Shown here: piece by piece, positions 12,862-17,696 of the stretch
Numbering within the stretch: the stretch's first letter is position 1
How the letters are laid out: every line of letters starts with the position of its first letter
Virus record (IMG/VR): IMGVR_UViG_3300035698_000176
Span: 1-22,309 of that record
Strand: one strand, 5' to 3'
From: a virus
DNA length: 22,309 nt
Notes under the pieces: generated by a model
What the model was told of the DNA's origin: nothing
The model's input: the letters and a program-made list of their open reading frames with translations, nothing else
Databases searched by the model: none
Position numbers and translations under genes: made by a program

Positions 12862-13317
12862 CTAATAACGAACCTCTACCAGCATTTCTGCTACTCCAAT
12901 AGGGTCCAATACTCCTTCATCAGTATCTATACTGATAATAGTAATTTGTTGTGCAAACTCAGTCAGACCTAGTTTATCTGTATAGCTAAGCCTAGAGTTC
13001 TCTTCTAGTACCGTTTCTACATCTTCTATCAGGCTATCTAATGCATCCACAGAATCCTCTTCGTTTACGTATATTCGAACAGTTACAGATAAAAACCTAT
13101 TTTTAACTCCGCCTCCCAAGTATTCTCGGGTTTCTGAGCCTGCGTTAATATGTATGGCAGGAAACTCTTCTATCTCATCCCAAAATTTTAGGGTGGGGTG
13201 TACATTTGTACCCATATCTGTCATAAAACTGCCCGATCCGTCTATTTTATTTAGTTCTGAAACGAGGGCACTTACTATGCTTTGTCTTTTGCTGGAGTAC
13301 TTTCTTTCGTCCACCAT
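12862..13317 (-). CDS. Tail terminator / tail completion protein
   Basis: This 151-aa protein has the size and pattern of tail terminator proteins, which cap the tube and join it to the head. It has an N-terminal helix (KRQSIVSALVSELNKI), a segment with FWDEIEEFPAIHINAGSET, and an arginine-bearing strand with VRIYVNEEDSVDALDSLIED. The start ATG 13317 overlaps the previous stop by one base. It lies directly upstream of the tail tube gene. The family assignment is moderate because it rests on fold-like pattern and position. Confidence 0.75.
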   Translation of the reverse strand: MVDERKYSSKRQSIVSALVSELNKIDGSGSFMTDMGTNVHPTLKFWDEIEEFPAIHINAGSETREYLGGGVKNRFLSVTVRIYVNEEDSVDALDSLIEDVETVLEENSRLSYTDKLGLTEFAQQITIISIDTDEGVLDPIGVAEMLVEVRY

Positions 13318-14690
13318 TATGATCTCCTAGTGTGGAATTTGTTAAAGGCGACTGTGGTCGCTACTTCTCTTATAGACATATCTATTAAAGGCCTAGGATC
13401 TCTCTGTGTAGAGCCCCGTGCCCAGCCTACCTCAAAAGTTTGATAAGGATACAGCATATAGGTATAATCCACAATAGGAAAGCCTCTTGTAGGTGTAATT
13501 ATATTTGTAACCTCTACACTGTCTGAGAACCTAGAGCTTACATTGTTAAGACGGGGGCTGCCCATGTTGCCTCTTACTGCCTGATGTAAGCCTTTATTTA
13601 AAGCTACAATCAGTGCTAGAGGGGAGGCCGATACGCCTTTAGCCGTGCCTTTGGCTTTTTTTATGGCGGTAGGGGCAGCTCTCTTAATAAACTGGCCTTT
13701 TGCATTTCTAGGTTGAGCAGCTCTCTTAATAAACTGGCCTTTTGCATTTCTAGGTTGAGCAGCTCGGGATTTTCCTGAGCTGCTCTTAGATATATTCTTC
13801 TTGCGGCGAGTCACCTTCTTGCCTTTAGAAGGTTTTCCTGCTATGGCATCTACTAGTACCTTTTCTATTTTCTCTGTTAGACTACTAGAGCCGTGCGCGT
13901 TAACTATTTGGGGGGCTAAGTACTTTATATATTCCCTAAATACTTTTACCAAGGCTTTCTCTGCTGCGGAGTCAACACCTACATTTTCTTTTCCGTGTTG
14001 AAAATCTATTATCGAAAAGTATTGTACTTTTAAAGCGCCTTTAGTAGTAACTATTTGACTATAGTCTGTAGTTAAAGACCTTAGCTCATTAGCTTGCTCC
14101 AGGCTTATACTACCTTTCATCATATAAGCATCTAGGTTTTCTAGTAGGAGCTTTTGACTGGCTTGATTGCCAAAAGAACTACCCATTTTATTCATGCTCT
14201 TAGCTATACCAATCTGAGATACTGCAGTTCCCCGAACTCCGTGACCTCTGTGTATGTCACTTTGAACACCTGAAGCCTGCTCTCTTGTTACTTCTCCAGA
14301 TCGTGCTAAGGCGTTAAATATTTCTGTTTTTACTAAAGCTATCGAGCTTGCAAAAGATTGTACTATAAATATGTTTTCTCCTAGTCTTCCTTCTGGAAGT
14401 ACCTCGGGTAATCTTCGTACTATAGCATTAAATCTGTTTTTATCTCCCTTTTGAAACCTTAGTTGCAAGGATAAAGCTTTTTTTCTTCCAGCGGATAAAG
14501 CTTTCTGTTCTGCAGCACTACTAATATCTATACCAAGGCTAGAACTAATAATTTCCTTTAAGACTTTAATGTCCCTAAGTATTAAAAGCTGGCCTGTTTG
14601 GCCTTGCACTAGTTTTCTAGTACGATCTCTAGCTGCTTTTTCTAAAACCCGAAATAGAGGTTCAGTTATTTTTGTATCTATTTCACTCAT
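13317..14690 (-). CDS. Large basic head-tail region protein of unknown function
   Basis: I do not recognise this 457-aa protein. It lies between the head-tail connector and the tail terminator, where lambda- and HK97-like phages carry head closure and neck proteins of 100-200 aa, so its length is unusual. Residues 1-290 are mostly helical and charged. A lysine/arginine-rich linker follows (~292-350), containing two exact copies of the 14-residue unit AAQPRNAKGQFIKR. The last ~90 residues form a conserved-looking domain (GFPIVDYTYMLYPYQTFEVGW). The C-terminal part could be the neck protein, with the N-terminal part an added module. Its stop and start abut the neighbouring genes, so it is part of the same operon. 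Confidence 0.7.
   Translation of the reverse strand: MSEIDTKITEPLFRVLEKAARDRTRKLVQGQTGQLLILRDIKVLKEIISSSLGIDISSAAEQKALSAGRKKALSLQLRFQKGDKNRFNAIVRRLPEVLPEGRLGENIFIVQSFASSIALVKTEIFNALARSGEVTREQASGVQSDIHRGHGVRGTAVSQIGIAKSMNKMGSSFGNQASQKLLLENLDAYMMKGSISLEQANELRSLTTDYSQIVTTKGALKVQYFSIIDFQHGKENVGVDSAAEKALVKVFREYIKYLAPQIVNAHGSSSLTEKIEKVLVDAIAGKPSKGKKVTRRKKNISKSSSGKSRAAQPRNAKGQFIKRAAQPRNAKGQFIKRAAPTAIKKAKGTAKGVSASPLALIVALNKGLHQAVRGNMGSPRLNNVSSRFSDSVEVTNIITPTRGFPIVDYTYMLYPYQTFEVGWARGSTQRDPRPLIDMSIREVATTVAFNKFHTRRS
13675..13765 (-). repeat. Exact 42-bp tandem duplication in the basic linker
   Basis: The unit at 13675-13716 is repeated exactly at 13717-13758, with a partial third start at 13759-13765. 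The period of 42 bp keeps the frame and gives two copies of AAQPRNAKGQFIKR. Base-perfect identity implies a recent duplication. Confidence 0.9.
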
Positions 14691-15300: not shown

Positions 15301-15326
15301 AAAAACTTGGGGGAGCGAACCCCCCC
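15301..15326 (-). terminator. GC-rich UUCG-loop terminator after the capsid gene
   Basis: On the minus strand seven G (15326-15320) pair with CTCCCCC (15315-15309), with one G-U pair, around a TTCG loop. The stem is followed by AAG and five T (15305-15301). It lies about 28 bases after the capsid stop and would reduce transcription into the tail genes. Confidence 0.8.
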
Positions 15327-15354: not shown

Positions 15355-17337
15355 TTAAGTAGCAAAGTCAATCTTTACAACGCCGTCATGTCCAGTAACA
15401 CCAGCAGTTAGTTCTTCAAAACCTAATGCCTGGCTACCAACAACAACTTTACGCTGTGCCATTACTTCGTAGTCTTGCTCGATCTTAATACCGCGTAGAC
15501 GAGGTATTACGTAGTTACGGATGTTTACAGCGAAGGCTGCTGGAGTTCCGTTGGCTTCGGCAGGGAAGGAGTCAGAAACAACTACCTGAGAACCGTATAC
15601 GGCACCAACTGTACCATTAACCTTCATGGCGATATCACTACCAACTTCGTTAATATCTTGGAAACCGGCATCGTCTAGTAGGTCATAGTAACCGTTCTGG
15701 CTTACGATGTAGGCGATATCACGAGGATTCATACCATATTTACCCATTACTTGACGAGCGTCTAGAAGACTGCCTGCTGTTAATAGCGCGCTGTTGCTTA
15801 AAGTTAGCTGGCTGTTTACGATAGAAGCATATCCGTCTAGGCCTGTAATTGAACCAGCACCGTTGATGATCATGCTATCAACTGCGCGTGCGTGTGCGCG
15901 GGCTACAGCGTCTACTAACATAGGTAGAAGCGCGATTAGAACCTGTTCGTCAGTATCGTTATCAATATACGTGCTAGAGATTAGACGGTACGCGTTCAGG
16001 ATTACTTGCTGTACGTCGAATGCATTGTCACTGGCACCAAGCTCTTCCAGGTTACCGGCAGTAGCACCACCAGTTTGGAATGTAGCAGGGTTAGAGTCTG
16101 GTTGCATAGGTAGAACTGTCGCACCGGCAATCACTGGGATTTCACGGAATAGGCCAGCTACTCGTAGTTCCTGCATGATTTGCTTTTCGATAGTACGTGC
16201 AACTGTCTGGTCAATATCAGCAGCAGATGTTGCGTAATCTACACCGGCTTTCTGCAAAATACCTTTAGCAAAGTCTGTATCAAATGACTTACCTGTGATA
16301 ACACCAAGTAAATGTGCTTCTAGGAAATCTTGTCCGAACTTAGTAACATCGCCAGCCTTACCACGATCTTGAAAGTTCATTTTAGATTCACGCATAGCTA
16401 TAATTTCAGCTGATTTCGCGTCTAAGTCTGCTTGGAATGCTTTAATAGTTTCTTCAACTGTTGCATCCTTAGCGGCTAGCTTAGCTTCGAAGTCTTTAAT
16501 TAAGTCTTCAGAGCCCATTCTTACGGCAACAGAAACTGCATCAGCAGTAGCTTTTTCGTTGGCGACAATTTTAGCGGCATCATCTGCTAAGGTCTTTGCA
16601 GCAGCTTCTTCTTCAACTTTCTTAGCCGCTGTTTTCATTGCAATAGCTACAGCAGTTTCTTCTGCTATTTGCTTTGCGTACGCTTTTAATTCTTCGGGTG
16701 TCATATCTATCTCCTGTGGAGAAACAGTAATTGTTTCTCCTTCCGGTGCATCACTAGCTACCTTAGAAGCATTAGCTTCTTCTTGAGCCAGGGATTGACC
16801 GGCTAGGTTTGCACTATGTTTAAAGGTTTGTTTATAGTCTTCGTATTCCTTCTCGGAATTAAACGACTTTGCTAAAGAAAACATGGCTGCTTGATTACAA
16901 GGAATCGATACTACGGATACCTCATACAATTCAGCTTCTTTAATTAGCAGTCCATTAGTTTCTTCTATATAGTCAGCATCCTTAATTCTAAAACCTACGG
17001 AGAAAGCTCCAAGGATACCTTCTTTAATTAGGTCACAGATACCACCGGCAGCTGATTTACTAATTCTTACTTCTAACTCTAATCCGTCAGAGCTAGTTAT
17101 TACTTCTGTGGCCTTACCTATCGGTCTGTCATAGTCGTGATTAAATAGGATAATAGGATTAGCCTTGAAGTTAGCTAAACCTCCTTTGTCCCAGGCTCCT
17201 GTCTGTATAACGTCTCCAGCTCGGTCAAAATCAGGTGTGCTAGCATACCCTCTTATCACTACACTACCGTCGTCAGCAGCCTTTATTTTATCAAAGCTAG
17301 AGATCAGACTAAAAACTTTTTTTGTATACGCTGCCAT
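15355..17337 (-). CDS. Fused prohead protease, scaffold and major capsid protein (HK97 type)
   Basis: One 660-codon gene holds three functions usually split. Residues ~1-160 are a prohead protease of the HK97/U35 type with H67 in ILFNHDYDRPIG, S113 in GAFSVGF and E139 in AELYEVSVVSIP. Residues ~212-320 are a lysine/glutamate/alanine-rich coiled coil that looks like the scaffold (delta) domain. Residues ~325-660 are the HK97-fold capsid protein, with GIKIEQDYE and a C-terminal region of the expected type. The protease should cut the scaffold away after assembly. The start is ATG 17337 with only a weak Shine-Dalgarno. A much stronger signal lies at the internal ATG 16704 (M212). Arginine codons change sharply there (AGA/CGA before, CGT/CGC after). 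The protein may thus be made in two forms. Confidence 0.93.
   Translation of the reverse strand: MAAYTKKVFSLISSFDKIKAADDGSVVIRGYASTPDFDRAGDVIQTGAWDKGGLANFKANPIILFNHDYDRPIGKATEVITSSDGLELEVRISKSAAGGICDLIKEGILGAFSVGFRIKDADYIEETNGLLIKEAELYEVSVVSIPCNQAAMFSLAKSFNSEKEYEDYKQTFKHSANLAGQSLAQEEANASKVASDAPEGETITVSPQEIDMTPEELKAYAKQIAEETAVAIAMKTAAKKVEEEAAAKTLADDAAKIVANEKATADAVSVAVRMGSEDLIKDFEAKLAAKDATVEETIKAFQADLDAKSAEIIAMRESKMNFQDRGKAGDVTKFGQDFLEAHLLGVITGKSFDTDFAKGILQKAGVDYATSAADIDQTVARTIEKQIMQELRVAGLFREIPVIAGATVLPMQPDSNPATFQTGGATAGNLEELGASDNAFDVQQVILNAYRLISSTYIDNDTDEQVLIALLPMLVDAVARAHARAVDSMIINGAGSITGLDGYASIVNSQLTLSNSALLTAGSLLDARQVMGKYGMNPRDIAYIVSQNGYYDLLDDAGFQDINEVGSDIAMKVNGTVGAVYGSQVVVSDSFPAEANGTPAAFAVNIRNYVIPRLRGIKIEQDYEVMAQRKVVVGSQALGFEELTAGVTGHDGVVKIDFAT
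16702..16715 (-). promoter_or_regulatory. Internal ribosome-binding site and start for a scaffold-capsid product
   Basis: AGGAG at 16715-16711 lies six bases before an in-frame ATG (16704-16702, M212). It would start a 449-aa scaffold plus capsid protein without the protease domain. The spacing is ideal and the site lies just at the protease-scaffold boundary. Confidence 0.65.
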
Positions 17338-17342
17338 TAGTT

Positions 17343-17696
17343 TTACTCTTTGCTCTTTGGTTTAGAGTCTTGCCCTACTTTAACGTTCTTTGCTTTGATT
17401 ACTAAAGCTGCTAAAGCATTGACTTTATCTGTATTAATCTGAGTAGAGTTAACTTTTACTACTGGTTTATAAGCTTTGCCTTCCTCAGTACCTATTATAG
17501 CCCAAAGTTCAGGCTCTAAAGTTTTGACCCTTTTTAGCATTCTGTTCCAGCTGCCAAGGTGTGATCGTATAGTTGCTACTGTAAACGGCTTATTTTCTAA
17601 GTCTGCCCACTCTAGCGGATTCAGTATCTTTCCTTCAGCTATAAATGTTTGTACAATTATTGTGCCTACTTTCTTTTTTGATCTTACAGTTGCCAT
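17343..17696 (-). CDS. Small protein of unknown function between portal and capsid genes
   Basis: I do not recognise this 117-aa protein. It is basic, with many lysines at both ends (ATVRSKKKVG near the N-terminus, SKPKSKE at the C-terminus). Its middle has a short helical segment with TVATIRSHLGSWNRMLKRV. No signal peptide or membrane segment is visible. It lies between the portal and the fused protease-capsid gene, where most HK97-type phages have the protease, so a role in the head is likely but unproven. ATG 17696 follows the portal stop by one base, with an AGGA about 10 bases upstream. Confidence 0.75.
   Translation of the reverse strand: MATVRSKKKVGTIIVQTFIAEGKILNPLEWADLENKPFTVATIRSHLGSWNRMLKRVKTLEPELWAIIGTEEGKAYKPVVKVNSTQINTDKVNALAALVIKAKNVKVGQDSKPKSKE

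Follow-up and report, generated by a model that had tools for sequence, protein, structure and literature searches.

The window, by which we mean the whole stretch of 22,309 nucleotides analysed here, carries on its minus strand an open reading frame (17337-15355; 660 codons plus stop) that joins prohead protease, scaffold and major capsid protein in an uncultivated marine phage, and comparison with its homologues strongly supports a nested start for the scaffold-capsid part at ATG 16704. The best explanation, to which we assign a probability of roughly 85%, is that two in-frame proteins are made from one mRNA, that the protease is carried into the head by co-assembly, and that the internal site is the ancestral start of the capsid gene. 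The fusion as such has already been published; the new part is the proposed nested start, whose product would include the shell protein itself.

Layout of the fused gene

The first-pass annotation had read the 660-codon gene as protease, scaffold and capsid in one, and the translation of the ORF agrees with this reading, as do its Pfam, PHROG and phmmer matches. The domain order in the 660-aa product is S78 prohead protease, variable linker, helical scaffold and T5-type HK97-fold capsid domain (Table 1), with the protease and capsid domains in a single uninterrupted ORF; the PHROG families matched are those of the head maturation protease and of the major head protein. His67 and Ser113 are the candidate catalytic residues and lie within the NHxY and FSVGF motifs, both invariant among 30 fused homologues. 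Residues 222-642 have phmmer matches to major capsid proteins of the T5 type (8zvi/8ho3) and to 5tjt, a chain of 299 aa; because residue 15 of 5tjt aligns with residue 375, the mature capsid domain was placed at about 361-660. An AlphaFold model, run on 30 aligned fused homologues, has a mean pLDDT of 54 and served for rough secondary structure only: at this low confidence, linker residues 173-211 have no regular secondary structure and the first long scaffold helix is predicted from residue 214 (helices 214-288 and 294-326). In the alignments, Glu209-x-x-Met212 forms a conserved island close to the end of the linker. The terminator-like hairpin at 15309-15326 is a strong one, and terminator-like matches in this region number 11, compared with 1.8 in shuffles.

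Table 1. Positions of the fused gene, its domains and its putative signals in the window.
Feature	Position	Strand	Basis
Fused prohead protease-scaffold-major capsid gene	15355..17337	-	ORF, translation, domain matches
First start ATG 17337 with weak AAGAG (17350-17346)	17335..17350	-	sequence; SD energy -2.4
S78 prohead protease domain, residues 19-154	16876..17283	-	Pfam PF04586, E=3.6e-15
Poorly conserved linker with internal SD, residues 173-211	16705..16821	-	alignments
Internal Shine-Dalgarno (SD) AGGAG	16711..16715	-	sequence; GGAG kept in homologues
Internal start codon ATG, codon 212, in frame	16702..16704	-	sequence; invariant in homologues
Scaffold or delta region, from residue 212 to about residue 360	16258..16704	-	alignment with the N-terminal part of the T5 capsid protein
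Major capsid domain (HK97 fold), about residues 361-660	15358..16257	-	phmmer alignment to 5tjt
Intrinsic terminator-like stem-loop and T run, directly 3' of capsid gene	15309..15326	-	sequence

The internal and the first start

ATG 16704 is in frame and has a ribosome-binding site of its own: as first annotated, an AGGAG (16715-16711) stands exactly 6 nt 5' of it, the spacer being atagat. Codon 212 has an SD duplex energy of -7.4 kcal/mol versus -2.4 at the annotated first start, values that assume E. coli-type anti-SD pairing in the host. This SD is the strongest among the 14 internal ATGs of the gene, and one equally strong is found upstream of only 2.1% of its codon positions. As an alternative, an internal promoter is unsupported: no sigma-70-like match was found on the minus strand close upstream of codon 212, and promoter-like matches are at chance level.

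The signal at the first start is indeed as weak in the window as the first-pass annotation had described it. The stop codon of the upstream gene (17345-17343) lies beside the AAGAG, and translational coupling of the first start to that gene is possible. In the window family the mean SD energy of the first start is moderate (-5.2), and the internal SD is the stronger of the two in 61/61 members. Several of the other fused lineages have strong SDs at the first start; a weak first start was therefore rejected as a general feature of fused genes, many relatives having moderate to strong ones. The internal start gains no advantage from local folding, the family mean being -10.1 kcal/mol around it versus -8.5 at the first start. 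The fused gene opens with GTG or TTG in 22/37 members of a second marine subfamily and with ATG in the window family.

Conservation of the internal site and selection on nucleotides

GGAG-N6-ATG is kept in 101/101 non-redundant close homologues, a set composed of the window and 60 IMG/VR relatives (61 sequences) plus 40 non-redundant sequences contributed by a further scan that used another query; in one of these 40 the regular expression overlooked the site, which was confirmed by hand. It is likewise kept in 38/38 sequences of the second marine fused subfamily, which has about 43% identity to the window, and all full-length homologues examined in both subfamilies are fused. The first-pass annotation had named the loss of the internal SD and ATG in close relatives as the observation that would speak against a nested start, and the alignments contain no such loss in either set.

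The codon into which the front of the SD falls varies (CAG/AAG/GAG/TTG, encoding Q/K/E/L) with GGAG remaining fixed. The next Glu codon is GAG in 61/61 sequences and forms the sole invariant-Glu column that is all GAG, GAA being twice as frequent as GAG in the genes of the window family. Ten ATG columns are conserved in at least 80% of the members, and only the column of codon 212 combines 100% ATG with 100% strong SD. When SD pairing was compared with synonymous shuffles, z values of -4.5 for the window family (five diverse members) and -5.1 for the second subfamily were obtained, together with -5.3 for PAJU2-like, -4.4 for Circum-like and -2.2 for Gifsy-2-like sequences. The case rests on conservation, because the shuffle p for the window sequence alone is only 0.065. 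SD pairing in these families is stronger than the protein sequence requires, which indicates that the conserved internal start is under selection on its nucleotides as well as on its residues.

The same arrangement in other fused lineages

An ATG occupies the aligned column in 67/69 fused PAJU2-like prophage sequences with a residue there, and lies at most two codons from it in the two exceptions; these border ATGs usually follow AGGAGG-like SDs, and the surrounding residues vary. Among Circum-like phages the ATG is at the aligned column in 55/64, with a mean SD energy of -9.4. The Gifsy-2-like genes, whose protease is of the ClpP type, have the ATG with GAGGA upstream in 26/26; their first Glu codon is GAG in 26/26 and their second mostly GAA, and their shuffle signal is the weaker one given above. 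At the level of individual phages, the Arthrobacter phages Circum and Gordon and the Microbacterium phages Count and Camille possess a strong SD/ATG at the protease-scaffold border, and the border ATG is also present in Nocturne116, RRH1, Maggie and BurtonThePup, with weak SDs that are individually no better than chance.

Around its scaffold, Circum has a pair of strong in-frame SD/ATGs, at codons 165 and 242, and Count, Gordon and Camille are grouped with it for the same feature. One member of the pair is at the extended N-terminus of the scaffold and the other at the family-conserved M-x-x-NVF site, suggesting that some Circum-like phages may possibly make three products from the fused gene.

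Origin of the fusion

In split PAJU2-like phages the capsid gene starts at the aligned Met. Three of them (L117, L142 and L153) have an upstream protease ORF that is in frame and whose stop codon is at the capsid SD: the protease ends before the capsid start in TAGGAGG, TAAGGA and TAAAGGA, respectively, the stop overlapping the SD in L117 and L142 and directly abutting it in L153. Fused relatives read CAG GAG or GAG GAG at this stop/SD site. Because the in-frame stop abuts or overlaps the SD, fusion needs only the loss of the stop by one base change, with the SD left intact. The capsid gene is out of frame with the protease in the remaining split PAJU2-like members inspected. A quick tree of PAJU2-like capsids gives 6 label changes, a count that is too high because the "split" rows L113 and L120 are contig-edge truncations. 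The CAGGAG of the window fits a stop-loss history, a step that we infer for its lineage since no member with split genes was found in its own subfamily.

Two products or one

According to our preferred reading, initiation at 17337 would give the 660-aa protease-scaffold-capsid chain, and initiation at the internal SD and ATG 16704 would give a 449-aa scaffold-capsid protein, which corresponds to the capsid precursor that T5 encodes separately. By co-assembling with the short chains through the scaffold-capsid part common to both, the full-length ones would bring the protease into the prohead, where it would remove the scaffold. The internal site would be the ancestral start of the capsid gene, retained after the protease lost the stop beside or over the capsid SD. 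Initiation at 16704, an excess of the short product and co-assembly are what we infer from the sequences; the first-pass annotation had expected little full-length and much scaffold-capsid protein, and the weak first start of the window, the stronger internal SD (61/61) and the GTG or TTG starts (22/37) point to less of the full-length chain. SD strength is not enough by itself to set the ratio, because the family mean at the first start is moderate and other lineages have strong first starts.

Alternatively, only the 660-aa chain could be made, with a protease on every subunit that is then released by autocleavage. Autocatalytic cleavage has been proposed for the published fusions of Nocturne116 and PAJU2 (PMC8306868), and the actinophage genes are annotated as a single fusion protein; we nevertheless consider this unlikely, as it leaves unexplained why GGAG is fixed despite changing residues, why the ATG is invariant, and why the arrangement recurs across lineages. 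Less probable still is that QExxM is a motif at the protein level, such as a site of self-cleavage between protease and scaffold, and resembles an SD incidentally. Within the linker, Glu209 and Met212 show almost no variation, and a released protease would require a cleavage site somewhere in this stretch, but the residue that overlaps the SD changes among Q, K, E and L, the amino acids do not account for all of the constraint on codon choice, and the PAJU2-like and Circum-like sequences keep the SD with unrelated residues there. The least credible of the three is that the internal start no longer functions and is left over from the pre-fusion capsid gene. Such a relic would share the observed homology to the split-gene start, but it would decay, and 139/139 marine fused sequences, which span about 43% identity, have the site intact.

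Comparison with known systems

The window contains a T5-like head/tail module (terminase, portal, fused gene, head completion protein, tail terminator and tail tube) with the gene order and homologous proteins of the T5-like phages (Demerecviridae), including a homologous protease and scaffold-capsid precursor. Cultured T5-like phages are its nearest named relatives, and their separate capsid gene begins near aligned residue 212. In contrast to the fused gene of the window, the T5-like records inspected have one gene for the protease and another for the capsid, 13-17 nt apart and out of frame. The head completion and tail terminator genes of the window flank a 457-aa ORF (13317-14690, minus strand) without Pfam or PHROG match. 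A tail protein of PQ773600.1, a record named Corynebacterium phage, scores identically to those of Salmonella T5-like phages, and the record may be mislabelled.

In phage lambda, the C/Nu3 pair has an in-frame nested start within a protease-containing gene, in which the full-length product bears the protease and the nested product is abundant; this nested product consists of scaffold alone, E, the capsid protein, being encoded by a gene of its own. Herpesvirus UL26/UL26.5 combines a protease-scaffold fusion with a more abundant nested in-frame scaffold product, with UL26.5 using an internal transcript and the shell protein being separate. Lambda C and UL26 both bring the protease into the prohead by co-assembly through the shared scaffold. 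The window shares with lambda the in-frame nested start inside a protease-containing gene and differs from both systems in that its predicted nested product includes the shell protein. Because the capsid domain is included, we regard it as a variant of the lambda C/Nu3-type nested pairs and not as a member; the comparison made by the first-pass annotation, a lambda-like nesting applied to the capsid protein itself, holds at the sequence level, the nested part having its own in-frame SD/ATG and containing the capsid domain.

Gifsy-2 reportedly has a fused "tripartite capsid gene". Both Gifsy-2 and PAJU2 resemble the window in having protease, scaffold and capsid in one ORF with an SD and an ATG where protease and scaffold meet, and they differ from it in the ClpP-type protease of the former and the other capsid family of the latter. 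Actinophages of clusters AM, AU, EL, AN and EE and phage RRH1 also have a fused gene annotated as one product, and clusters with a "major capsid and protease fusion protein" have been published (PMC5513430, PMC7302621). For the EpicDab fusion an in-frame ATG was pointed out, located 5' of the protease domain (PMC9671378). We found no proposal of a nested capsid start in the open-access literature on these fusions; the GenBank records of fused genes that we examined list one product, those of Gifsy-2 and PAJU2 being without an annotated nested start.

Significance

Protease-capsid fusions have repeatedly been reported as one protein, which leaves unexplained how one protease per shell subunit is avoided. 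With an internal ribosome start, the phage could produce shell protein of which not every copy bears a protease. A conserved nested start would answer this problem and put right the annotations of several phage groups, and it offers a simple way for the fusion to evolve, the loss of a stop codon at the capsid SD. It is probable, at a confidence somewhat below that given to the reading of the window itself, that the nested capsid start is the general answer to protease stoichiometry in fused phages and that several lineages became fused through loss of the protease stop. If this is true, stop loss at the capsid SD would be a cheap and reversible change after which selection kept the SD, and fused head genes annotated as a single product would be two-product genes.
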